A stretch of DNA of 64,000 nucleotides, taken from Spiribacter salinus M19-40 (lineage in GTDB: Bacteria; Pseudomonadota; Gammaproteobacteria; Nitrococcales; Nitrococcaceae). The DNA lies in contig NC_021291.1 of assembly GCF_000319575.2 (NCBI RefSeq), positions 1,054,001-1,118,000 on the forward strand, in the 5' to 3' direction. Both the position numbers and the translations under genes were made by a program. This document shows, one piece after another, positions 42,713-62,284 of this stretch. The notes under the pieces are model-generated. The model was not told where the DNA came from and did no database searches. It saw only the letters and a list, made by a program, of their open reading frames with translations. Positions within the stretch are counted from its first letter, which is position 1. Every line of letters begins with the position of its first letter.

Positions 42713-43612
42713 TCAGGCTTCTTGTTCAAGCCGTCTTCGACGTTGTGCCAGCTGGCGCTGGACATTCAGCCAAGTCACAGCAATCAGGATCACGGCAACG
42801 CCCATTGCTTCCGTGGGCCTGAGCAACTGACCGAGTAGCAGCACACCAAACAGTGTCGCTGTCGCCGGCTCCACCATGGCCGTCACGGCGGCAGTCGACG
42901 GCAGCACGCCCCGTAGACCCGTGAAGTAACAAAAAAACGACAGCCCCGCGCCCATCAACCCGAAAAGCAGAAACAACCACGCATCAGGCGAGGCTGGCAC
43001 GCGCGCCACTTCAGCCCAATCCAGCAGCGGCGCCAAAGCAATCACCGAGGCGGTAAAGGCGACCGATAGCGCTGCCGGTGTTGAGCCATGCTGGCCTGCT
43101 GATTTAAAGGCGAAGATGAACAGGGCGTAGGACGCGGCCGAGAGCAGACCGCTGGTTACTGCAAACGCAGTCAGTCGGGGAGATGATCCCGTATAGACAC
43201 CGGTCATCAGCACGATTCCAACCATGGTGGCGAGGATAACCAGCCCGCTACCGATCGTTGGCCGCTCAGTGCGCAGTAGAAAAGAGACGAGATAGACCAT
43301 GACGGGCGCGGTATACATCAGGGTGATTGCGACCGCGACGCTGCCAGCGCTAATGCTCAGGAAATAATAGACCAGATTACCTGCCACACCGAACCCGGCA
43401 AGGCTCGACCAGGCGACAAGACGCCATCCGAATTCGCGTCGCACCCCACTCGCCACCCGCCAGAGCACCCAGGCCCCCATGCACAGCAGCCCGACAACCA
43501 CCCGCCAGAAGGTCACGACCTGCGGCGACCAGCCCGCGTCCATGAGGATGCTGGCCAGCCCACCCGATAGCCCCCATTGGAAAGCGCCAAAGGCAACGAG
43601 CAGCACCGGCAT
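42713..43612 (-). CDS. DMT-superfamily (EamA) transporter
   Basis: A 299-residue membrane protein with ten predicted helices in two EamA repeats. Family elements are AFGAFQWGLSGGLASILM near the start and the second-repeat FLLFGLMGAGLSFFCYFTGLRG followed by VEPATATLFGVLLLGQ. Members usually export amino acids or metabolites. It stands alone between the amine block and tRNA-Arg. The substrate cannot be deduced. Confidence 0.87.
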   Translation of the reverse strand: MPVLLVAFGAFQWGLSGGLASILMDAGWSPQVVTFWRVVVGLLCMGAWVLWRVASGVRREFGWRLVAWSSLAGFGVAGNLVYYFLSISAGSVAVAITLMYTAPVMVYLVSFLLRTERPTIGSGLVILATMVGIVLMTGVYTGSSPRLTAFAVTSGLLSAASYALFIFAFKSAGQHGSTPAALSVAFTASVIALAPLLDWAEVARVPASPDAWLFLLFGLMGAGLSFFCYFTGLRGVLPSTAAVTAMVEPATATLFGVLLLGQLLRPTEAMGVAVILIAVTWLNVQRQLAQRRRRLEQEA

Positions 43613-43718
43613 GCACTGACCTCCACGGCTATACTGAGTGTGGCTGCGCTATCAGTGCCCGGCCTCGAGGAACGCCCCATTCCTCGGCGGTATAAAGCGG
43701 ATTGTTTCGTAATAAAAA

Positions 43719-43740
43719 AACCGGCCTCTATTGGCCGGTC
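43719..43740 (-). terminator. Terminator after tRNA-Arg
   Basis: Stem ACCGGCC / GGCCGGT around a short loop, followed by a run of U in the leftward direction. It begins about 10 bases after the tRNA-Arg 3' end. Confidence 0.85.
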
Positions 43741-43750
43741 TTCTAATAGC

Positions 43751-43827
43751 TGGCGCGCCCGGGAGGATTCGAACCCCCAACCTCCTGATCCGTAGTCAGG
43801 TGCTCTATCCAGTTGAGCTACAGGCGC
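43751..43827 (-). tRNA. tRNA-Arg (anticodon ACG)
   Basis: A 77-base tRNA with encoded CCA. Acceptor GCGCCTG pairs with CGGGCGC, including one G-U pair. The anticodon loop CTACGGA gives anticodon ACG, whose first base is normally deaminated to inosine by TadA, also encoded in this window. D- and T-arms are intact. Confidence 0.96.
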
Positions 43828-43843
43828 TTTGTTGAGAGCGCGG

Positions 43844-43872
43844 ATTATGGGCAGTTTAGGGGCAAGGGTCAA
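43844..43872 (-). promoter_or_regulatory. Sigma-70 promoter of tRNA-Arg
   Basis: On the minus strand TTGACC and CATAAT are separated by exactly 17 bases, ending 16 bases before the mature tRNA 5' end. This is the clearest promoter in the window. Confidence 0.8.
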
Positions 43873-43931
43873 GGCACACCACCAGGCCAAAGAGGTTATG
43901 ATACGGGCAACATCAGAACGGGAGCCACGCC

Positions 43932-44387
43932 ATGAATCGGATTCGTTGCATCGCCATCACACTCGCCCTGCCATTGATGGCCACAGGTCATAACGCATTC
44001 GCCACCGACATCGAAATCAATGTTGCAAAGACGCCCACCTGCGGCTGTTGCACGGCGTGGGTCGATCATCTCAAAGACCGCGGCTTCAACGTTGAGACCC
44101 GCGATGTCACCCACGCCGAGCTCAACAACATCAAGGCGAAAATGGACATTGGGCCAGGCCTTGCCTCTTGCCACACCGCCGTTGTCGACAACTACTTCAT
44201 CGAAGGCCATGTCCATGCGAATGAGATTCGCAGCCTGATCGAGGATGCACCAAATGCGCGCGGCCTCACCGTGCCGGGCATGCCCATTGGCTCGCCCGGG
44301 ATGGAAATGGGGGATGAACGTGATGCCTACGAAACCCTTCTGGTGAAACACGATGGCGCGACGGAGACCTATCGAGAGCATCGCTAG
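43932..44387 (+). CDS. DUF411 family periplasmic metal-binding-like protein
   Basis: A 151-residue exported protein with a signal peptide to about residue 25. The mature part starts with TPTCGCCTAWVDHL (Cys37, 39, 40), a thioredoxin-like cysteine arrangement, followed by ASCHTAVV (Cys80, His81), a GHVH motif and a methionine-rich PGMPIGSPGMEMGD tail. Cys/His/Met composition suggests copper or another soft metal; DUF411 genes are often near copper genes. None are adjacent here, and the NCS2 permease follows after about 50 bases. Confidence 0.88.
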   Translation: MNRIRCIAITLALPLMATGHNAFATDIEINVAKTPTCGCCTAWVDHLKDRGFNVETRDVTHAELNNIKAKMDIGPGLASCHTAVVDNYFIEGHVHANEIRSLIEDAPNARGLTVPGMPIGSPGMEMGDERDAYETLLVKHDGATETYREHR

Positions 44388-44440
44388 CGGCACGGCCGTT
44401 GCATTGTATAATCCGAATTTGGGCATTTTTGGGGAACAAC

Positions 44441-45730
44441 ATGCTGGAGCGATTCTTTGGCCTTGCCGAGAACGGCACGGATCTGCGGCGTGAGCTGCTC
44501 GCCGGGTTAACCACCTTTTTGACCATGGCCTATATTGTCGTGGTGAATCCGAGCATCCTCTCTGACACGGGGATGGATTGGGGGGCTGTCTTCGTCGCTA
44601 CCTGTCTGGCAGCAGCGCTCGGCAGCCTGATCATGGGGCTCTACGCCAATTACCCGTTCGGCCTGGCACCCGGTATGGGTCTGAACGCCTATTTCACCTA
44701 CGGTGTGGTGCTCGGCATGGGCATCGCCTGGCAGACGGCGCTTGGCGCGGTCTTCCTCTCCGGCATTCTGTTTCTGATTATCTCGCTACTGCCCATTCGG
44801 GAATGGATCATCAATGCGATTCCCATGTCGCTCAAAATGGCTATTTCCGCGGGTATCGGTTTTTTCCTGGCGATCATCGCTTTGAAGAACGCCGGCATCG
44901 TGGTGGATAGTGAAGCAACGCTTGTCACGCTGGGTGACCTGACCGCCACGCCCACGCTCCTGGCCATGCTGGGCTTCGGCATCATGGTGGCGCTCAGCTA
45001 TCACAAAATCCCGGGCGCCGTGCTGCTTGGCATCCTTGCCATCAGCATCATCGGCGTCCCCCTGGGTGTCGCGGAGTTTGATGGCGTGGTGTCCATGCCA
45101 CCGGATCCCAGCCCAACGTTCCTGCAGATGGATATCGCCGGCGCCTTCGAGATGGGTCTGATTTCGGTGGTGCTGGTCTTCCTGTTCGTGGATCTGTTCG
45201 ATAGCAGCGGCACGCTGGTGGGTCTGTCTCACCGAGCCGGATTCCTTGATAAAGACGGCAAGCTCGGACGACTGCGCAGCGCACTGATGGCCGACTCTGG
45301 CGCAACCATTGGCGGCGCTGTTCTAGGCACATCGACCACCACCACGTACATCGAGAGCGCCGCTGGCGTAAACGCCGGCGGCCGCACTGGCCTGACCGCT
45401 GTGGTTATCGCCGTGCTGTTCCTGCTCTCGTTGTTCTTCCTGCCCGTGGTCAGCGCTATCCCAGGCTATGCCACTGCGCCAGCGCTGCTGTTTGTCGCCT
45501 GCATGATGGCGCGGGGTCTCGCCGATCTCGACTGGGATGACATCACCGACACGGCCCCCGCCGTCGTCACTGCGATCGCCATGCCGCTCACCTACTCCAT
45601 CGCAGACGGCATGGGCCTTGGCTTCATCACCTATGTACTTGGCAAGGCGCTCGCGGGCCGGGTACGGGAAATCCACATCGCCGTCTGGCTGATCGCGGCG
45701 CTGTTTGCTGTGCGCTTCGCGCTACTTTGA
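44441..45730 (+). CDS. NCS2/AzgA-type purine permease
   Basis: A 429-residue membrane protein with about 12-14 helices. The start at 44441 (MLERFFGLAENGTDLRREL) has a GGGGA site. Family marks are TTFLTMAYIVVVNPSIL, GLAPGMGLNAYFTY, KMAISAGIGFFLAIIALK and the late GTSTTTTYIESAAGVNAGGRTGL. AzgA relatives import hypoxanthine, guanine or adenine. It is followed by a terminator that isolates it from the convergent DsrE-like operon. Confidence 0.92.
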   Translation: MLERFFGLAENGTDLRRELLAGLTTFLTMAYIVVVNPSILSDTGMDWGAVFVATCLAAALGSLIMGLYANYPFGLAPGMGLNAYFTYGVVLGMGIAWQTALGAVFLSGILFLIISLLPIREWIINAIPMSLKMAISAGIGFFLAIIALKNAGIVVDSEATLVTLGDLTATPTLLAMLGFGIMVALSYHKIPGAVLLGILAISIIGVPLGVAEFDGVVSMPPDPSPTFLQMDIAGAFEMGLISVVLVFLFVDLFDSSGTLVGLSHRAGFLDKDGKLGRLRSALMADSGATIGGAVLGTSTTTTYIESAAGVNAGGRTGLTAVVIAVLFLLSLFFLPVVSAIPGYATAPALLFVACMMARGLADLDWDDITDTAPAVVTAIAMPLTYSIADGMGLGFITYVLGKALAGRVREIHIAVWLIAALFAVRFALL

Positions 45731-45751
45731 CGAGCGGGTAATCTAGCAACG

Positions 45752-45782
45752 AAAAAGCCGACCTATGGGCCGGCTTTTTTTT
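45752..45782 (+). terminator. Terminator after the NCS2 permease
   Basis: An AAAAGCCG / CGGCTTTT stem with a GC-rich interior and a run of eight T forms a Rho-independent terminator for the rightward gene; the flanking A-run could also allow leftward use by the convergent DsrE-like operon. Confidence 0.75.
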
Positions 45783-45801
45783 GCGCTTTTGCACCGAGTC
45801 A

Positions 45802-46140
45802 CTACAGCGTAATGATTTGGTCTGGCATATTGCCCGCCAACGCGCCATAAAGATCCGGAAAACAGCCGATCGGAATGCCTGGCATCAGCCGGTCTGCGAT
45901 TTCACGCTCGTAGCAGCACTGATCACAGCCCATCAGCAGGATGTTCTGCGACTCGGCGACCTTGCGCAGGCGCTCGCCGATCACGTCACCCTCCACGAGC
46001 ACGTAGTTGTTGTCCTCGAAAAAGAACATGCCCACAACCTCCACGCCATGACGCTGCTCTTCGAGCTGGGGCAGGATCATGCGCCCAAGAACGTAGGAAA
46101 CAGTGTGACGCTGGGTAGCGAATATATAGGCAACTTTCAT
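45802..46140 (-). CDS. DsrE-like small protein with CxxCC motif
   Basis: A 112-residue cytoplasmic protein of DsrE/TusD type fold: a KVAYIFATQR start, then VVGMFFFEDNNYVL and ILLMGCDQCCYEREIADRL. It has Cys72, Cys75 and Cys76 where DsrE proteins carry their persulfide cysteine, and Cys93 in IPIGCFPDLYG. DsrE-family proteins relay sulfur as persulfides. Its TAATG junction overlaps the preceding gene by one base, making it the last gene of the ABC operon. It resembles, from memory, the DsrE-related component of 'SAO'-type systems. Handling of a thiol-bound cargo is inference. Confidence 0.72.
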   Translation of the reverse strand: MKVAYIFATQRHTVSYVLGRMILPQLEEQRHGVEVVGMFFFEDNNYVLVEGDVIGERLRKVAESQNILLMGCDQCCYEREIADRLMPGIPIGCFPDLYGALAGNMPDQIITL

Positions 46141-46544
46141 TAGCCCCCCTGATGGTTGGTTTGGATGGTCATCATCAGTGCCCGGCAGCTTCCCAAAGCG
46201 ATGGCGGCCCGATCCTGCAACAGCGGTGGGACACCACTAACGCGAGCGATCAGCGTATCCAGCGCCGGCACAGCCGGCGAATTAATGGGCTGGTTGACGA
46301 GCATGTCGACCATCGCCTGGCAATAGGCAACGAGTGTGGAGCAGGCGCTGCATTCGAACTGCAGCGTTTTTAATCGGCCATCCAAGACGGCGGCACTAAA
46401 GCCTGCGTGCAAGCCGGAAGCGGCCTGCACCGTTTGGCCACGCAACGGCAGGGGCGAAAGACGGCGCGTTTCCATGCCCCGCTCGAGACAATCCTGAACG
46501 CTGAACCCCGACGCCGGCCGACGGGCCGCGCAACAGGCACTCAT
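46140..46544 (-). CDS. Cysteine-rich protein, possibly IscU/NifU N-terminal-like fold
   Basis: A 134-residue protein starting at the ATG within an ATGA overlap (MSACCAARRP). Seven cysteines are at 4, 5, 19, 65, 68, 75 and 120. The stretch LDGRLKTLQFECSACST, then GVPPLLQDRAAIAL, runs parallel to IscU/NifU (F-T-GC, then LPPVK-HC). The expected cysteine pattern is altered: the first and third IscU-like cysteines appear absent while CC, CxxC and Cys120 are new. This suggests a scaffold-like protein adapted to another cargo. Fold assignment is tentative. Confidence 0.55.
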   Translation of the reverse strand: MSACCAARRPASGFSVQDCLERGMETRRLSPLPLRGQTVQAASGLHAGFSAAVLDGRLKTLQFECSACSTLVAYCQAMVDMLVNQPINSPAVPALDTLIARVSGVPPLLQDRAAIALGSCRALMMTIQTNHQGG

Positions 46545-47302
46545 CGGTATTTCCACCGCAATAAGTGGCGCTCGAGCATGCCCGACAGCGTGAAGAGGAT
46601 CATGACGAACACCAGCACCAGGAAGATCAGCCCAAAGGTGAGTGTCGCGTTGTAGGTACTCTGAGCGAAGGCCAGCAGATACCCCAACCCACGGCTTGAG
46701 GCTACGAACTCACCCACTACCGCGCCGGTGAACGCAAAGCCAACAGCCACCTTCAGGCTGCCCATAACCCAGGTCACCACTGAGGGGATGTAGACCTCGC
46801 GCAACAACACCCACTGACCGCCACCGAGTGTTTTGACCCGCTCGACCAACCGGTAGTCAACATCGCGAATGCCGTTATAGACCGAGAAGAAGGTCAGAAC
46901 CACGACAAGAATGAATGACAGGGCCACCTTCGATGCCAGCCCAATGCCGAGCCAGATGATGAACAGCGGCGCGAGGATGACCCGCGGGATCGCATTGAGC
47001 ATCGCCATCACGGGTTCGAGCAACTCGGCCACCGGCCGCAGCAGCGCGGCGATAAAGCCCAGAATAGCCCCACCGGCCAGCCCGAGCCCGAGCCCCAGCA
47101 GCGCGGCGCCAAACGTGGCCTCGAGGTGCTTGTAGATCTCGCCATCGGCAAAGAGACCGCCCACCGCGCCAGCGATAGCCGACGGCGCAGGCGCGTAGAA
47201 CGGATCCACCCAACCCATCCGACCGATGAACTCCCAAAGGCCCGCTATTAGGGCAAGCGCTGCCGCCCTTCGGGCAAAAAGGCCGTATTTCTGCCAGATC
47301 AC
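46541..47302 (-). CDS. ABC transporter permease (SsuC/TauC family)
   Basis: A 253-residue six-helix permease of the nitrate/sulfonate/taurine class. The transport signature is RVKTLGGGQWVLLREVYIP with the preceding NAIPRVILAPLFIIWLGIG, both typical of SsuC. It overlaps the ATPase gene and the IscU-like gene by four bases each, so expression is tightly coupled. With its SsuA-like binding protein it would import a small ligand from the periplasm. Confidence 0.92.
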   Translation of the reverse strand: MIWQKYGLFARRAAALALIAGLWEFIGRMGWVDPFYAPAPSAIAGAVGGLFADGEIYKHLEATFGAALLGLGLGLAGGAILGFIAALLRPVAELLEPVMAMLNAIPRVILAPLFIIWLGIGLASKVALSFILVVVLTFFSVYNGIRDVDYRLVERVKTLGGGQWVLLREVYIPSVVTWVMGSLKVAVGFAFTGAVVGEFVASSRGLGYLLAFAQSTYNATLTFGLIFLVLVFVMILFTLSGMLERHLLRWKYR

Positions 47303-48078
47303 TGGTTAACCACCCTCAATGGCGGCGCTGACTGCGCCTGGGGCGCCCGGACTTCGCCAGATAGGTCGTTCCAGAGGGTGGTGGCAATGCGGGCGAATTC
47401 GGGGTTTTCCTTGACCTTCAGCAGATCCCGGGGCCTCGGCAAGTTGACCTCGTACCGGCCCTTAATGCGTGCGCGCGGCCCACTGCCAAGCAGAATGACC
47501 CGATCCGAGAGCGCTACCGCCTCTTCAAGATCGTGGGTCACCAGCAGCACGGTCAGTGACTCGCTCTCCACCCATCGCAGCAGATCATTGGTGAGATAGT
47601 GCCGGACGATGGCATCAAGTGACGCAAACGGCTCGTCCATCAATAGAAAGCGCGGCCGCAGAGCCAGCACCTGCGCGATGGCGACCCGCTTTCTCTGCCC
47701 CCCGGAGAGCTCCCGCGGGTAACGGTCTTCAAAACCCCGCAGCCCGACTGAGGCCAGCCATGCATCGGCCTTCTCCAGGGCCTCGGCCTTGGCTATGCCG
47801 TGGTTGCGCAGGCCCAGGGCCACATTCTCACGCGCTGTTCGCCAAGGCAGCAGGGCATCGTCCTGGAACAGAAACCCAATCTCATCTCGGTCCACGCCAA
47901 GCTCGACGCGGCCGGCCGAGGACGTCTGCAGTCCCATCACGGCACGAAGCAGTGTGCTCTTCCCGCAGCCGGACGCCCCAATGAGACTGACGAACTCACC
48001 AAAGCCGACCGTCAGGTCAACGCCTTCGACGACCGGCTCTGCTCCATAGCTGATCTGAACATCCGAGAGTTCGAGCAT
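47299..48078 (-). CDS. ABC transporter ATP-binding protein (SsuB/TauB family)
   Basis: A 259-residue ATPase. Walker A is GASGCGKST, the Q-loop is FLFQDDALLPWRT, the signature is LSGGQRKRVAIAQ and Walker B is FLLMDEPFASLDA, followed by the THDLEEAV switch region. It powers the adjacent permease. The gene begins three bases after the binding-protein stop. Confidence 0.94.
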   Translation of the reverse strand: MLELSDVQISYGAEPVVEGVDLTVGFGEFVSLIGASGCGKSTLLRAVMGLQTSSAGRVELGVDRDEIGFLFQDDALLPWRTARENVALGLRNHGIAKAEALEKADAWLASVGLRGFEDRYPRELSGGQRKRVAIAQVLALRPRFLLMDEPFASLDAIVRHYLTNDLLRWVESESLTVLLVTHDLEEAVALSDRVILLGSGPRARIKGRYEVNLPRPRDLLKVKENPEFARIATTLWNDLSGEVRAPQAQSAPPLRVVNQ

Positions 48079-48081
48079 AGA

Positions 48082-49149
48082 TCAGCCGACCACTCCCGGC
48101 GCCACGATGCGATCCAGCTCGACGCTGCCACCTCGGCCACCCGCGGCCTGGTTGACGTCAATCACCCGCTGCATCGCCTCGAGATTCATGTTCACAGCCT
48201 CCGGATAGAGCGAAGCGCGGTATCGCGCCAGCGTATTCGCGAGCTGATCACGGTCTCCGCCCGTGATGATCTCCGACGGTAGCGATTCGACGAGCTGGGC
48301 TGGATCAGCAGACTGCACATGGCGCAGCCCCTTTCCGAGAGCCCGCGCAAGCGCCTGCATTTCCTCAGTGCGCGCCTCGAGCTCCTCACGCCGCACGGCG
48401 ACACCCATGAACTCATAGGCACCACCGAGATACTCCCGGGCATCATCAATGTCCATGCCATTAACCAGGACCCGCGAGCCACTCTCCTCGAGCAGGGACA
48501 GCGCTGGTTCCTGGACCATTCCGGCATCGAGCTGACCCAGCCGGATAGCGTCGTATAGGTTTGTCCCCACAGTCGCGAACTCTACCGACTCGGGGTTCAC
48601 CCCCGCCCGACTGAGCAAATAGAGCATGAAAGCATGGTCAGCGTTGCCGAGCGCGGAGACGCCAATCGTGCGGCCTTGAAGGGACTCAACACTCTCTAGC
48701 TCGCCGGCAAGATCTGGACTAGTCGCCAGGGCAAACAAGGGCAGCCGCCCGGTGGAGGCAAAGCGCACAATGTCAGCCCCACTCGAGAAGGCGTTCAGGG
48801 CCGCGTCAAATGAGGTGGCCGCATAGTCCACCGCGCCGCCATTAAGCGCCTGCAATGCGGCACTGCCGCCCCGCGTATAGACGAGCTCTACATCGAGGCC
48901 TTCCTCAGCAAAAAAGCCCGCGGCACGGGTCGCCTCATAAGGCACTACACACAGCAACTGGCTGCAGAAGGCCAGCCGCACGCGTTTCTGCTCGGCCCAA
49001 ACCGGACCAACAATCCCGCCCATGGCAGTCAGTCCTGCAGCACCGGCGGCGCCGCGCAGAAAATCGCGTCGGGAGACGCCGCGGCTAATGTGCAGGACGT
49101 CGACATCCCCGCTCTTTAGCGGTTCGAGATCATTGCAGCAGTTCGACAT
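48082..49149 (-). CDS. Tat-exported SsuA-like binding protein with a Cx4C ligand loop
   Basis: A 355-residue binding protein of the nitrate/sulfonate/taurine class and first gene of the operon. A Tat signal (SRRDFLRGAAGAAG) is at about 26-45, preceded by an unusual N-terminal extension with Cys4 and Cys5. After the signal only two cysteines remain, Cys62 and Cys67 (AFCSQLLCVVPYE), in the first loop that normally contacts the ligand in SsuA-like proteins. Both codons are TGC/TGT, so this is a cysteine form. Tat export suggests folding before secretion. A soft-metal or organometal ligand is inference. Confidence 0.85.
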   Translation of the reverse strand: MSNCCNDLEPLKSGDVDVLHISRGVSRRDFLRGAAGAAGLTAMGGIVGPVWAEQKRVRLAFCSQLLCVVPYEATRAAGFFAEEGLDVELVYTRGGSAALQALNGGAVDYAATSFDAALNAFSSGADIVRFASTGRLPLFALATSPDLAGELESVESLQGRTIGVSALGNADHAFMLYLLSRAGVNPESVEFATVGTNLYDAIRLGQLDAGMVQEPALSLLEESGSRVLVNGMDIDDAREYLGGAYEFMGVAVRREELEARTEEMQALARALGKGLRHVQSADPAQLVESLPSEIITGGDRDQLANTLARYRASLYPEAVNMNLEAMQRVIDVNQAAGGRGGSVELDRIVAPGVVG

Positions 49150-49275
49150 GGTCCACTCCAGGTGAATCGTTAACTATAATCAGGATAACGGCCGCACTAA
49201 TGCAGCCAAAGGATCAATCCGTTCTAGGGATATTGCATTCAGGAATAAGGCCGCCCTTGCAGCACCCGCACCGCT

Positions 49276-49535
49276 GGGGTTCGAACCCCTACGTTCAACA
49301 GACATAAAAAAGGGGCCGTTGGCCCCATTTGTATGTCTGGCGGAGAGGGAGGGATTGATTCGGCCCTGCGGGCCTCACCCTTCGGGCGCCTCGCTGCGCT
49401 CGCCGTCCCCATCGGCTCGCGCCGATGGGTCGAACCCCTTATTCGTCTGTTCCGGGGGTTCGAACCCCTACGTTCAACAGACATAAAAAAGGGGCCGTTA
49501 GCCCCATTTGTATGTCTGGCGGAGAGGGAGGGATT
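49276..49535 (-). repeat. Direct repeat (two 81-base copies) spanning tRNA 3' end and terminator
   Basis: Copies at 49276-49356 and 49455-49535 differ by a single base. Each holds a GGGGTTCGAACCCC palindrome, an AGACATA...TATGTCT arm closing a GGGGCC-GTT-GGCCCC terminator hairpin, and the last bases of tRNA-Ser (3' end with CCA). Only the right copy is joined to the full tRNA. The 98 bases between them are rich in short palindromes. The 573-base space from 49150 to 49722 holds no other gene. Confidence 0.85.
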
Positions 49536-49604
49536 CGAACCCCCGGAACCTTTCGGTTCACCGCATTTCGAGTGCGGCGCTTTCGACCACTCAGCCACCT
49601 CTCC
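49517..49604 (-). tRNA. tRNA-Ser (anticodon CGA)
   Basis: An 88-base type II tRNA with encoded CCA. Acceptor GGAGAGG pairs with CCTCTCC; the anticodon loop CTCGAAA reads CGA; a long variable arm (GAACCGAAAGGTTC) is present. It shares acceptor and T-arm with the tRNA-Ser(GGA) of this window. The leftward terminator and a truncated second copy of its 3' end lie just beyond. Confidence 0.95.
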
Positions 49605-49722
49605 CAGTGGTGCGGATTGTACATCATCAACACTTCTCCTGGAAAAGCGACTATGAGCTGTTTGGCCAGTTACACTATGGCTTGGTTGTTGCACCCAATA
49701 CTGTAAGGACTGCCCGCCCCCC

Positions 49723-50634
49723 ATGCTGACCACCCAGTCGTCCACTCCCCTCGGATTCTCGGCTTACGAAGGGATACGCGATCGCCTGCCCTTCCCCAAT
49801 CGACGCGGGGCAGTGCAACGTGCCTCCCACCTTGGCGACATTGCCGAGCACTACGACACCTTCCTCCTGGATGCCTATGGGGTGCTCAACCGGGGGCAGG
49901 TCGCCGTGCCCGGCGTGCCAGAGCGGATTCGTGAGCTACAGGCTGCCGGCAAGCGGGTCATGGTGGTCTCCAACGCCGCCGGGTTCCCCCATCGCGTGCT
50001 CATGGAACGCTACGGTGCACTGGGCTATACCTTCGCGTCAGAGGATGTCATCACCAGCCGCAAGACCCTGGTGCGACGCCTTGAAGATCATGAACCCCGG
50101 CACTGGGGCATGATCGCGGGTCAGCATTTCGGGCCGGATGAGTTTCCTCCGCTGGACTACACCCTGCTCGCGGATGACCGCGCGCATTACGACTCCGCCG
50201 AAGGCTTTCTACTGGTGGGCGCATCCGAATGGACGCCGGCTCGTCAGGCGCTACTGGTGGAAAGCCTCAAGGCCCATCCGAGGCCGCTTTATGTCGCCAA
50301 TCCGGACCTGCTGGCGCCGCAGGAGGGTGGACACTCCACCGAACCCGGCACCTATGCCCATCAGATCATGGACGAGACGGGGGTCGAACCCGAGTTCTAC
50401 GGCAAGCCCTTTGGCCAGATTTTCGAGACCGCCATGCAGCAACTCGGCGATGACGTTGACCCCGCTCGCACGCTCATGGTGGGCGACACACTGCACACGG
50501 ATGTCCTTGGTGGACTCACGGCCGGGCTCCAGACAGCACTGGTCACCGAGACGGGTGTACTTGCTGGCATGGACATCGACGAGGCGATCCAGACCTCCGG
50601 CATCGCGCCCGACTGGGTGCTCAGGCAGGCCTGA
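49723..50634 (+). CDS. HAD-superfamily class IIA hydrolase
   Basis: A 303-residue phosphatase-type HAD protein, NagD-like in layout. The nucleophile Asp50 is in FLLDAYGVLNRG. Motif II is VVSNAAGFP, and the late VGDTLHTDVLGG is motif IV. A large class IIA cap separates them. The sugar or nucleotide phosphate substrate is unknown. It is convergent with the proline-racemase-family gene, overlapping it by 14 bases. Confidence 0.86.
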   Translation: MLTTQSSTPLGFSAYEGIRDRLPFPNRRGAVQRASHLGDIAEHYDTFLLDAYGVLNRGQVAVPGVPERIRELQAAGKRVMVVSNAAGFPHRVLMERYGALGYTFASEDVITSRKTLVRRLEDHEPRHWGMIAGQHFGPDEFPPLDYTLLADDRAHYDSAEGFLLVGASEWTPARQALLVESLKAHPRPLYVANPDLLAPQEGGHSTEPGTYAHQIMDETGVEPEFYGKPFGQIFETAMQQLGDDVDPARTLMVGDTLHTDVLGGLTAGLQTALVTETGVLAGMDIDEAIQTSGIAPDWVLRQA

Positions 50635-58801: not shown

Positions 58802-61800
58802 ATGGATCTCAACGCCGCACTTGCCACTTACGGACTCGACTTCGACACTTTGCAGACGCCGGAGGGCTTACAAGCGCTCGACGCGCAATTCCTGGAAGCG
58901 CTGCAAACCGCCAATCCGGCCCTCGCCCGGCAACTGGTGGATTACCGGGGCCGCGACAGCGACCTGCCGGGCACCGAGAACAGTGATTTACTCATCGCCC
59001 TGGGCCCCCATGTAGAAGCCTTTCTGGGGCGTCTATTCGGCATTGCCGAGCGTCTCGCTGCTGATCGCGAAGCCATCCTCGCCGACGATGTGGTGATGCA
59101 GTTCAAGCAGGCCTACGTGCAACGTCGGGTCAAAAAGCATCGTCGCCCCGTGGAGTCGACTTTTGCTGAGCTTGATGGGGCTTTGCGTGCCGGGATCGGG
59201 CGCGTTGAAGATAACGATGAAGAGGGTGCCGTGGCGCGGTTTGGCATGGCGCTCCTCGAGGATGAGACCCAAAACGCCGAGGCGATAGAAACCCTCACCG
59301 CCTGGTGCAAGCTTGCGCGCCAGACCCCGGAAGGTCAGGCCCGCGTGCGGGGCTGGGCCAGCTTCAAGCTCCCTGAGCGTGTGGATCACTTCGACCTGGT
59401 GCCGAGTGAAACCGTGGAGGTTGATGGCGTGACCCGCCGTCAGGCCGCGCCTGAGCGGTGGCGCCCACGCGATGGATTCTCTCTGACCGACGCCCGTATG
59501 ACGCCCCGCGAGGTCCAGAGCGAGGTGCATTACTGCATCTACTGCCATGATCACGAGGGCGATTTCTGCTCCAAGGGATTCCCCGAGAAGAAGACCCAGC
59601 CTGAGCTTGGCTTCAAGCATGATCCGCTGGGCGTCACGCTGACCGGCTGCCCACTCGAGGAAAAGATCTCCGAGATGCATGTGCTGCGCCGCGATGGCTA
59701 CAACCTGGCAGCCCTGGCGATGGTCATGGTGGACAACCCCATGGTGCCGGCCACTGGACATCGCATCTGCAACGACTGCATGAAAGGCTGCATCTACCAG
59801 AAGCAAGATCCGGTCGACATCCCGCAGATCGAAACCCGAGTGCTCACGGATGCGCTGGACCTGCCCTGGGGCGTGGAGCTGTACCACCTACTGACGCGCT
59901 GGAATCCGCTGCGTCGCGAGCAATACATCCAGCAACCCAATAATGACCGGCGCGTCCTTGTCGCCGGTATGGGGCCAGCCGGATTCACGATGGCGCACTA
60001 CCTCACGATGACGGGTACCGCCGTGGTTGGTGTGGATGGCCTTAAAATCGAGCCGCTGCCCGACTCGGTCCTCAACGCCCCGGTCGAGCGCTGGGCCGAT
60101 CTGCAGGAAGACCTCGACGAGCGCATCCTGATGGGCTTTGGCGGTGTAGCGGAATACGGCATCACCGTGCGCTGGGACAAAAACTTCCTGAAGCTGATCT
60201 ACCTGACGCTGGCGCGGCGACAGAACTTCCGTGTCTATGGAGGTGCCCGGCTTGGCGGCACGGTGACCCTGGAGGATGCCTGGGCCCTTGGCTTTGACCA
60301 TGTCGTCAACGCAACGGGGGCCGGCCTGCCCCGTGTCGTGCACATGGGTAACAGCCTCGCCCGGGGGATGCGTCAGGCGAGTGACTTCCTCATGGCGCTC
60401 CAGCTAACGGGGGCGGCCAAAGCCTCCAGCCTGGCCAGCCTGCAAGTCCGCCTGCCGGCCGTTGTCGTAGGGGGTGGCCTGACCGGTATCGATACCGCCA
60501 CCGAGGTCCAGGCCTACTACATCAAGCAGGTTGAAAAGATGCTTGAGCGCTACGAGCGCCTGGTTGAGCACTTCGGTGAGCAGGCAGTCACTGCCGGTAT
60601 GAACGACGAAGATCAGGCCACCCTGACCGAGTTCTGTGAACACGGCCGGGCGGTTCGCGCCGAACGGGCGGCGGCTGAGCAGGAGAATCGGGCGCCGGAC
60701 TTTAACCCGCTGATTCGAGGCTGGGGTGGCGTGACCGTTGCCTATCGCAAGGGCATGAGTGACTCACCGGCCTATGTGCGTAACCATGAGGAGGTCACCA
60801 AGGCCACCGAGGAGGCGCTCTACTACGCCGAGGGCCTCGAGCCGCTACAGGCCGAAGTCGATGAATACCAGCATGTCAGCGGCCTGGTCTGCCGGGAGCT
60901 GAGCCGGCAGGACGGGCGATGGGTACCGACAGGTGCAGAGCGTCGACTCCCCGCCCGGGCCATCTTCATCGCCGCCGGGACGGTGCCGAACACGATCTAC
61001 GAGCGTGAGCACCACGACACCTTTGCCCTCGATGGCAATCATTTCCTGCCCCACACGCCGACGGATAACGGCCTGGAGCCCGTCGATGACGCCGAGCACT
61101 GCAAATCGCGTGTCTTCGGGCCATTCACCTCATACAACGAGGGTGGCCGCCGGGTGACGTTCATCGGCGACACGCACCCCGCCTTCCATGGCAGCGTGGT
61201 CAAAGCGATTGCCTCGGGCATGCGCACCTACCCCTATGTCATGGCGAGCATGGCGCACGAAATGCCCGGCAGTGATGAGCCACATGCGGCGTTTCTAACG
61301 CGCATGGATGATCTGCTCACGCCCCGGGTCGTCGAGGTCAAGCGGGACAACCCGGCCATGGTGGAAGTCTGGGTTCGCGCACCCATGGCGGCCCGAAATT
61401 TCCGTGCCGGGCAGTTCTACCGCCTGCAGACCTTCGAGTCCCTCTCGCCCGTGGTGAATAACACGCGGCTGCAGATCCCGCTTATCACCGTCTCCGGAAC
61501 GGGCGTAAAAGACGACTGCATTCGGCTGATGGTGCTGCAATGGGGGGCCGGGCCAAGGCTGGTTGGCCGGTTGCAGCCCGGGGACCCGCTCGTACTGATG
61601 GGCCCGACGGGCGCGCCCACGGATATGCCAACGGGGCGGACCATCATGGTGGTTGCCGGACGCTGGGGCGCTGCGGTCATGCTCGATATTGGCGCGGCCC
61701 TGCGCGCTGCTGGCAACCGCGTCCTCTACGTCGCGGCCTTTGGATCGGCTGGTGATGTGGATCATCAAGACGAGCTCGAGGCCGGCGCCGATCAGATTAT

Positions 61801-62284
61801 CTGGTGCACGGCGAAAGACGACTTGATCGAGGCGCGGCGCGCGCAGGATGTCAGCCTTCAGGCCACCGACATGATCGATGTGGTCAAGCGTTACGGAGAC
61901 GGTGAGTTAGGACCCGAGGCGGGCGGCATCCCGCTGGCTGATGTCGACCGAATTATGGTCATGGGCGGCACGGGATTGCTCAAGGGCTTCCAGAGTGCGG
62001 TGAAAGGTGAACTCAAAGCACGTGTGGCCGAGGGCTGCGATGCCTTTGGCACGGTTGGTAGCCCCATGCAGTGCATGATGCAGGGCGTTTGCGCGCAATG
62101 CCTGCAGTGGCAGATTGACCCGGAAACCGGTGAGCGGACCCGCCCGGTCTTCTCCTGTGCGGGCCAGGATCAGCCCTTGACCTGGATCGACCTCGATAAT
62201 CTCGCCGCCAGACAGCAACAGAATCGTCTCAGCGATCGGCTGAACGGCCAGTGGCTGGAAGCGGTACTGCCCGAGGCTCCGTAG
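58802..62284 (+). CDS. Large fusion flavoprotein (GltD-like plus PyrK-like modules)
   Basis: A 1160-residue protein. An N-terminal helical domain of about 240 residues has no recognised motif. A GltD/DPD-like module follows with cysteines at 245, 248, 256, 283, 323, 326 and 330, a FAD motif near 388-394 (VAGMGPAGF) and a second nucleotide motif near 555 (VVVGGGLTGIDTA). From about 839 a PyrK-like reductase module ends with a 2Fe-2S set at Cys1091, 1097, 1100 and 1119. Electrons could flow from NAD(P)H through flavins and clusters. Partner and substrate are unknown. Confidence 0.8.
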   Translation: MDLNAALATYGLDFDTLQTPEGLQALDAQFLEALQTANPALARQLVDYRGRDSDLPGTENSDLLIALGPHVEAFLGRLFGIAERLAADREAILADDVVMQFKQAYVQRRVKKHRRPVESTFAELDGALRAGIGRVEDNDEEGAVARFGMALLEDETQNAEAIETLTAWCKLARQTPEGQARVRGWASFKLPERVDHFDLVPSETVEVDGVTRRQAAPERWRPRDGFSLTDARMTPREVQSEVHYCIYCHDHEGDFCSKGFPEKKTQPELGFKHDPLGVTLTGCPLEEKISEMHVLRRDGYNLAALAMVMVDNPMVPATGHRICNDCMKGCIYQKQDPVDIPQIETRVLTDALDLPWGVELYHLLTRWNPLRREQYIQQPNNDRRVLVAGMGPAGFTMAHYLTMTGTAVVGVDGLKIEPLPDSVLNAPVERWADLQEDLDERILMGFGGVAEYGITVRWDKNFLKLIYLTLARRQNFRVYGGARLGGTVTLEDAWALGFDHVVNATGAGLPRVVHMGNSLARGMRQASDFLMALQLTGAAKASSLASLQVRLPAVVVGGGLTGIDTATEVQAYYIKQVEKMLERYERLVEHFGEQAVTAGMNDEDQATLTEFCEHGRAVRAERAAAEQENRAPDFNPLIRGWGGVTVAYRKGMSDSPAYVRNHEEVTKATEEALYYAEGLEPLQAEVDEYQHVSGLVCRELSRQDGRWVPTGAERRLPARAIFIAAGTVPNTIYEREHHDTFALDGNHFLPHTPTDNGLEPVDDAEHCKSRVFGPFTSYNEGGRRVTFIGDTHPAFHGSVVKAIASGMRTYPYVMASMAHEMPGSDEPHAAFLTRMDDLLTPRVVEVKRDNPAMVEVWVRAPMAARNFRAGQFYRLQTFESLSPVVNNTRLQIPLITVSGTGVKDDCIRLMVLQWGAGPRLVGRLQPGDPLVLMGPTGAPTDMPTGRTIMVVAGRWGAAVMLDIGAALRAAGNRVLYVAAFGSAGDVDHQDELEAGADQIIWCTAKDDLIEARRAQDVSLQATDMIDVVKRYGDGELGPEAGGIPLADVDRIMVMGGTGLLKGFQSAVKGELKARVAEGCDAFGTVGSPMQCMMQGVCAQCLQWQIDPETGERTRPVFSCAGQDQPLTWIDLDNLAARQQQNRLSDRLNGQWLEAVLPEAP

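Follow-up and report, generated by a model that had tools for sequence, protein, structure and literature searches.

A patchily distributed, cysteine-centred ABC importer operon of Spiribacter salinus that probably serves the uptake of a sulfur compound or sulfur-loving metal

A 64,000-nucleotide stretch of the Spiribacter salinus M19-40 genome (contig NC_021291.1, positions 1,054,001 to 1,118,000; hereafter the window) contains a tight operon of five open reading frames (ORFs) on the minus strand, at window positions 45802-49149, encoding in order a substrate-binding protein (X), an ATPase (A) and a permease (P) of the ATP-binding cassette (ABC) type, an IscU-fold protein (U), and a SaoD/DsrE family protein (D). 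All five ORFs lie at the place given by a first-pass annotation made from the sequence letters. Comparison across genomes demonstrates that this system is real, recurrent, patchily scattered, and cysteine-centred. Because X carries one cysteine pair in a loop and usually another at its N terminus, and is accompanied by two small cysteine proteins, its cargo is probably a sulfur compound or sulfur-loving metal, imported by an undescribed route.

The most consistent feature of the system is found in X, which constitutes a discrete SsuA-like clade. The four cysteines of X are disposed as first read: C4 and C5 precede the arginine pair (R27 R28) of its twin-arginine translocation (Tat) signal, while C62 and C67 follow it and are located in the beta1-alpha1 loop, where a structural model places them at the end of the strand and the start of the helix. 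Both loop cysteines are present at 46 of 46 X loci, including the N-terminal piece of a broken copy (L236), and both are kept in G954, in which the loop is altered to TCGQFLC. In contrast, both positions are free of cysteine in all 48 outgroup proteins (G followed by Y or V in 43 of them), which score 32-159 bits where members of the X clade score at least 354. The predicted conservation is thus upheld, with the reservation that a scan yielding 38 loci used a pattern, AFCSQLLC, that contained the cysteines and so biased this part of the count in their favour; members found via D or by profile, outside the scan, nevertheless agree, among them six from Thermaceae (G954, G976, G977, G982, G987, and G996). 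Left out before the 46 loci were counted were L011 and L012 (genomes of L076 and L077), L109 (an incomplete additional copy alongside L099 in one genome), G982 (nearly identical to G445, with equal scores), and L167 and L168 (genomes of L083 and L088). The gene calls at the loci, made with an in-house codon scorer, are approximate.

Whole-genome profile searches, in which the best candidates per genome were scored (five for X in the class Gammaproteobacteria, 10 in the work on Thermaceae and the Microvirga family, and 11 for U in the class), draw the same boundary. Among the matches listed from 50 Thermaceae and 199 Microvirga-family genomes, X members score at least 446 bits and other binding proteins at most 159. 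The order to which S. salinus belongs (the home order; 54 genomes) yields six X matches, all of at least 668 bits, and among 369 genomes of the class that of S. salinus alone reaches the full X level, the next of the candidates scored standing at 103 bits. A tree built by a quick method, with long branches flagged, likewise sets the X clade apart from five outgroup rows (SH-aLRT, the Shimodaira-Hasegawa-like approximate likelihood ratio test, 100).

That X, A, and P compose an SsuA-like ABC importer, as proposed at first pass, is borne out by family models and by the fold of X. Specifically, X exceeds the gathering score of Pfam NMT1/THI5-like PF09084 (81.2 bits against 20.5) and the cut-off of the twin-arginine signal model TIGR01409 (21.6 bits against 16.7); it stays below that of SsuA_fam TIGR01728 (72.2 bits against 163.5), a model matched at E <=0.001 by 28 of 28 X members. 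Its fold is like those of 3qsl, SsuA, ThiY, Thi5, and PqqT, and 3qsl, a putative exported protein, is also its nearest solved relative by sequence (3.1e-41). The best NCBIfam models for A are ntrCD (201.3 bits) and SaoA (168.8 bits), and P matches SsuC (92.3 bits) and SaoP (90.4 bits), all four scores being under cut-off. Two interrupted copies of X were also encountered: at L236 (G987:C4, around 314543-315511) an in-frame stop splits a Thermaceae X into two open pieces, with A and P open, and in Thermus parvatiensis (L105 5965-6974) X is split between two overlapping pieces that differ in frame, which may reflect a frameshift close to its end.

The second cysteine pair of X, two adjacent residues, precedes the Tat motif at 42 of the 46 loci (L236 included), within an n-region that can otherwise hardly be aligned and of which MSCCVDRR in Thermus is an example; the pair is missing from L103, whose start is uncertain, and from L106, L107, and L108, the outermost members in the tree. 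Under a uniform rule (CC at most 10 residues from any of the start codons close to the called one, with control proteins of at least 80 residues), the pair is found in 28 of 41 X genes as opposed to 6 of 402 other called proteins, a comparison that supersedes an earlier control (0 of 431) reliant on called starts, which often clip the start of X. Outgroup proteins with a VGGK loop have no Cys-Cys within the 45 residues preceding that loop (0 of 43), and in three of the outgroup rows (L112, L181, and L186) a CC occurs further upstream in the open frame. In most X genes codon 3, 4, or 8 specifies the first cysteine of the pair, and U also opens with Cys-Cys in 8 of 14 cases, some U starts being uncertain. 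Because an A-x-A-like cleavage site seems, by eye, to come after the pair in many members, the Cys-Cys of the precursor would most simply represent a thiol handle that serves in the cytoplasm, prior to export or in its course.

Each of the small partner proteins brings further cysteines. D had been described as DsrE-like with a CxxCC site. It exceeds the cut-off of NCBIfam NF040913, 'SaoD/DsrE family protein' (175.5 bits against 152), and contains C72-x-x-C75-C76 as well as C93. Within the family, C72, C75, and C93 are invariant in the 14 members sampled and C76 is present in seven. D falls short of the SaoD model NF040732 (143.7 bits against 169), and its matches to PDB profiles are weak (YchN, E 0.21; DsrE, E 0.6). 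Pfam DsrE (PF02635) gives no match to the D of the window and matches 8 of 14 homologues at E <=1 (best 1.8e-06). A SaoD/DsrE gene was also seen beside, and diverging from, an Argonaute PAZ-domain gene in Thermus thermophilus HB8 (L258; pTT27 61751-62152).

U itself has no match in Pfam or NCBIfam at E 1. IscU proteins in the PDB are nevertheless matched by a profile built from 11 homologues (2.7e-12), and the AlphaFold model of U (predicted local distance difference test 89.3) matches IscU in Foldseek (E 3.8e-06; template modelling score 0.74), where the 48 matches at E <=0.001 are IscU-, SufU-, or NifU-type chains or complexes; among them 1su0 is titled hypothetical and is named IscU in the PDB profile search. 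The IscU/NifU-like protein with seven cysteines announced at first pass therefore exists in fold and in cysteine number, but only C68 and C75 (numbered from the ATG) are conserved throughout, in 14 of 14 homologues, the U of the window reading C-x-T-L-x-A-Y-C at this point; C19 is present in 11. An IscU scaffold is defined by three cysteine ligands plus a histidine. Alignment of U with IscU begins after the N-terminal IscU cysteine, whose counterpart could not be placed, and pairs Cys68 with the central IscU cysteine, Cys75 with a serine, and D111-R112 with the IscU His-Cys motif, such that in the aligned part the central cysteine alone is kept. U thus shares with IscU and SufU the fold and the central cysteine, and differs in having Asp-Arg for His-Cys, the N-terminal ligand region lying outside the alignment. 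Since the His-Cys pair is gone and the seven cysteines are not all conserved, U is no ordinary IscU, and the role of a normal Fe-S scaffold is ruled out by its cysteine pattern.

The order X-A-P-U-D recurs in five further genomes of the home order, and complete or partial versions of it occur in Halomonas, a Burkholderiaceae metagenome-assembled genome (MAG), Alphaproteobacteria, and Thermus. Six of the 54 home-order genomes have X and the same six have D (Fisher 4e-8, kinship ignored), each time as X-A-P-U-D. In a wide set of 37 genomes, including two from the home order, D exceeds its cut-off in 21 and adjoins X-A-P in 17. Among the 50 Thermaceae genomes, X is present in 11, D above cut-off in 20, and both in nine (p 0.002, kinship ignored). 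At 14 loci, which fall into two separate regions of the tree, U is encoded between P and D, and it is carried by the home lineage, Halomonas, and a few Alphaproteobacteria; in the 369 class genomes it reaches 167 bits in S. salinus alone, and 16 others, with at most 42 bits, presumably represent ordinary IscU proteins. One Spirochaetales MAG has a partly read U gene together with D on a different contig from X.

Several counts weigh against D and U as constant companions of X. X occurs without D in 16 of the 37 wide-set genomes (two of those contigs end too early), D adjoins X in just three of the nine Thermaceae genomes with both, D is present in 11 of the 39 Thermaceae genomes without X (three more have partial matches), and U is found at only 14 of the 46 X loci. 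The first-pass expectation that D and U accompany X, and that their shared neighbourhood would recur across genomes, hence stands for the home order and for the repeated five-gene arrangement, but is weakened by the share of U loci, by the wide set, and by Thermaceae. D in particular is above cut-off in 30 of the 369 gammaproteobacterial genomes, S. salinus included, of which the other 29 have no X and no full-strength U. Beside D at those loci there is no X, P, or U (several contigs end close by, and weak ATPase matches lie near two), nor any neighbour common to at least five, besides out-of-frame shadows of D. D is thus ruled out as a marker of this transporter and, given its occurrence without X in 29 other genomes of the class, has wider duties. 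As a separate observation, a DUF169 (COG2043) protein with several cysteines takes the place of D after X-A-P at L087 and L092, where it was tested, and by eye at L084 and L091. The viral contigs scanned contain no X. Carriage of the operon as plasmid cargo was also considered and rejected: among 72,556 plasmids X is on one at E 1e-40 (Thermus brockianus, as X-A-P-D) and U on none at E 1e-3; 32 plasmids, 29 from Thermus, carry D at E 1e-20.

Clues to the ligand come from the genes that surround X and D, which in raw tallies point to sulfur more often than to soft metals. SoxC is encoded two genes upstream of X at L093 (647.7 bits, cut-off 420), with a cytochrome c also in front; a YpdA-type bacillithiol disulfide reductase is encoded just upstream of X at L104 (383.9 bits, cut-off 339.9) and a rhodanese upstream of X at L082. 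On the strand opposite to X lie a TIGR01244 sulfur transferase gene at L096 and an O-succinylhomoserine sulfhydrylase gene, above cut-off, at L083; genes similar to that of L096 are seen by eye beside L102 and L103, and O-acetylhomoserine sulfhydrylase-like genes, under cut-off, are near L233 and L235. In one of two Methylomirabilota (L107), the order is a MoaD/SAMP-like gene, a gene for a cysteine synthase-like pyridoxal phosphate enzyme (338.7 bits, cut-off 344), X-A-P, a gene of the nitrite/sulfite-reductase family, and by eye a rhodanese-type gene; in the other (L108), the same order holds up to the contig end, reductase and cut synthase being recognized by eye. Two haloarchaea have D within a TusA-rhodanese-YeeE cluster. 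DsrE3A is reported to be a carrier of Cys-S-thiosulfonate that is itself unreactive with thiosulfate or polysulfide (PMC4175335), and YeeD an essential partner of YeeE in thiosulfate uptake (PMC11073785), chemistry that fits the sulfur side. Other loci, including most of those in Halomonas and the home order, have no telling neighbour.

The same neighbourhoods also supply evidence that cuts against sulfur. Some of the sulfur-context genes, as indicated, are on the opposite strand from X. The Methylomirabilota proteins are distant X homologues (41% identity) with neither the Cys-Cys pair nor D or U as partners, and a nitrogen ligand is possible because the best model for the L107-type reductase is that of nitrite reductase (417 bits, cut-off 594), sulfite reductase models scoring lower. 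In Lutibaculum (L084) a MerR/MerT/MerP-like cluster lies directly upstream of X, MerP above cut-off and MerR and MerT under it, and metal ABC genes are beside D in Thermomicrobium and near D in one Thermus. With regard to S. salinus itself, no nitrite/sulfite reductase (NIR_SIR) domain was found in the genome (G000), and for that reason the organism may depend on reduced sulfur; a missing reductase was rejected as the reason to keep X, the domain being absent from one of five genomes with X and from three of five without.

Taken together, we are inclined, at somewhat less than even confidence, to view the operon as encoding an ABC importer of dithiol type, whose thiophilic ligand is handed to cytosolic thiol carriers, with sulfur likelier than metal. 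X would fold in the cytoplasm, be exported by Tat, and in the periplasm hold the ligand, covalently or by coordination, through Cys62 and Cys67. The most likely ligand would be a reduced sulfur compound, whether thiosulfate- or thiosulfonate-like, a polysulfide, or a mixed disulfide. Once it has been carried inward by P and A, D, by means of its CxxC and Cys93, may accept the sulfur moiety in protein-bound form, as carriers of the DsrE/TusA type do, and U (Cys68, Cys75) could provide an additional thiol carrier in the home lineage, Halomonas, and a few Alphaproteobacteria. A more elaborate scheme, in which sulfane sulfur or a soft metal would pass from the cysteine pair of X through the pump to a relay of IscU-fold and DsrE-fold proteins, the Cys-Cys tail checking or priming X before export, is considered doubtful.

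Two other views of the ligand have to be set beside the sulfur importer. The pump may instead bring in a soft metal or organometal in the manner of the Sec-assisted organometallic (SAO) system, described in a 2026 review (PMC13188914), with C62 and C67 binding, for example, Hg(II), and X, U, and D coordinating the metal through vicinal cysteines before detoxification or trafficking. The relationship of D to SaoD speaks for this proposal, and in five of six SAO loci the SaoD gene stands beside an ABC ATPase gene; also in its favour are a SaoX cysteine that by eye occupies the corresponding beta1-alpha1 loop (six of six SaoX genes read NCDHM or DCDHM there), weak matches of the SaoX model to 12 of 28 X members, and the mer-like cluster and metal ABC genes noted above. 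Vicinal cysteines, moreover, mark mercury proteins. However, Mer-like genes accompany a single X locus, the operon has no MerB-like, SaoC, SaoT, or efflux gene, none of the four matching Sao cut-offs is reached, and sulfur-related neighbourhoods are the more numerous in the raw tallies, so that metal import is judged unlikely. Less likely still is an ordinary importer, for a sulfonate, a nitrogen compound, or a ligand of the thiamine-precursor type, in which Cys62 and Cys67 would form a structural or redox-switch disulfide while D and U act elsewhere. The CxxxxC spacing would permit such a disulfide, the fold of X and the SsuA_fam matches of all 28 members place it among importers of this kind, and D occurs in many genomes without X; yet the nearest binding proteins lack the loop cysteines, the cysteines outlast the altered loop of G954, and the association with the cysteine proteins D and U, like the Cys-Cys kept ahead of the Tat signal of this exported protein, also weighs against it.

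A further alternative concerns the N-terminal pair alone, and supposes that the start-proximal cysteine codons of X, and of U where it has them, serve during translation to sense how much cysteine is available, and not as protein thiols. The few codon positions that the first cysteine takes in most X genes, within a drifting n-region, and the early Cys-Cys shared by two unrelated ORFs of one operon, would accord with such a sensor, but U lacks the pair in 6 of 14 cases (its starts being partly uncertain) and for a sulfur importer such regulation would have an unexpected sign, which renders the idea highly improbable.

The search of each protein against Pfam, NCBIfam, and SAO models also allows the importer to be compared with known systems. 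A resemblance to SAO had been suggested at first pass, and it extends to D, which is SaoD-related by NF040913, but not to membership, which is rejected because all four Sao equivalog cut-offs are missed (SaoD 143.7 bits against 169, SaoX 21.3 against 300, SaoP 90.4 against 295, SaoA 168.8 against 360). SaoL, SaoC, SaoT, SaoB, and SaoE are not found among the five operon proteins, which were the scope of that scan, and at E 1e-3 a six-row X profile misses SaoX in six SAO loci and a U profile finds no U there. Judged from these sequence comparisons, the system is related to SAO in one partner without being a member: the two have in common an ABC importer, a SaoD/DsrE-type protein and, by eye, a loop cysteine, while the operon differs in the Tat signal with Cys-Cys on X as well as in the missing Sao components. 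With SsuABC, TauABC, and ThiXYZ, whose binding proteins are NMT1/THI5-like, it shares the binding-protein fold and the ABC parts, and it departs from them in the two loop cysteines, in Cys-Cys plus Tat, and in its partners D and U. The YeeE/YeeD (TsuAB) system of thiosulfate uptake likewise pairs a membrane transporter with a cytosolic cysteine protein; the transporter is of another class and works without a binding protein. The two haloarchaeal clusters mentioned above place the D family beside genes of this kind, and the YeeD partner is TusA-like, not DsrE-like. None of the papers listed by searches of the open literature concerns the present operon, which two Haft papers, on SAO and on selenoprotein neighbourhoods, may mention.

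The five genes are listed in Table 1. Their junctions had been described as ATGA or TAATG overlaps, which is accurate for P/U (ATGA) and U/D (TAATG), but A/P overlap by GTGA and the X stop is separated from the A start by 3 nucleotides, without overlap. U is counted from the ATG at 46544, the listed GTG start giving 138 residues, and the ATG of X is preceded by GGAG, which resembles a ribosome-binding site.

Table 1. Genes of the operon, with window coordinates and the basis of each assignment
Gene	Product	Coordinates	Strand	Basis
X	Tat-exported SsuA/NMT1-like substrate-binding protein, 355 residues	48082..49149	-	Pfam NMT1, fold, conservation
A	ABC ATPase, 259 residues	47299..48078	-	Pfam ABC_tran, 105.8 bits
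P	ABC permease, 253 residues, without cysteine	46541..47302	-	Pfam BPD_transp_1, 76.3 bits
U	IscU-fold protein, 134 residues from ATG	46140..46544	-	PDB profile search, AlphaFold, Foldseek
D	SaoD/DsrE family protein, 112 residues	45802..46140	-	NCBIfam NF040913

The S. salinus genome, a single contig of 1,739,487 bases, contains one X, the next match standing at E 9e-4 and 25% identity. By Pfam, three flanking genes encode DUF411, Xan_ur_permease, and HAD hydrolase proteins; the first of these (43932-44387, plus strand), downstream of the operon and opposite in strand, has a CGCC stretch and is possibly metal-binding. No promoter-like match was found in 45650-49400, and at gathering score Rfam finds nothing in 43000-50000 besides two tRNAs. 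Just upstream of X is an 81-bp direct repeat (99%; 49276-49356 and 49455-49535) that takes in the 3' end of a tRNA-Ser gene (49517-49604), a partial duplication of a tRNA end near a patchily distributed operon.

The import by ABC transporters of reduced sulfur or soft metals without release of reactive species is poorly known. The X clade, with members in Halomonas, Microvirga, and Thermus, offers a compact case, in that each of its cysteine pairs, of which one lies in a signal tail that is probably cleavable, can be mutated on its own. It likewise ties SaoD/DsrE, a widely annotated family of unknown role, to a transporter outside SAO, and provides in U an example of an IscU-fold protein rebuilt for another use.

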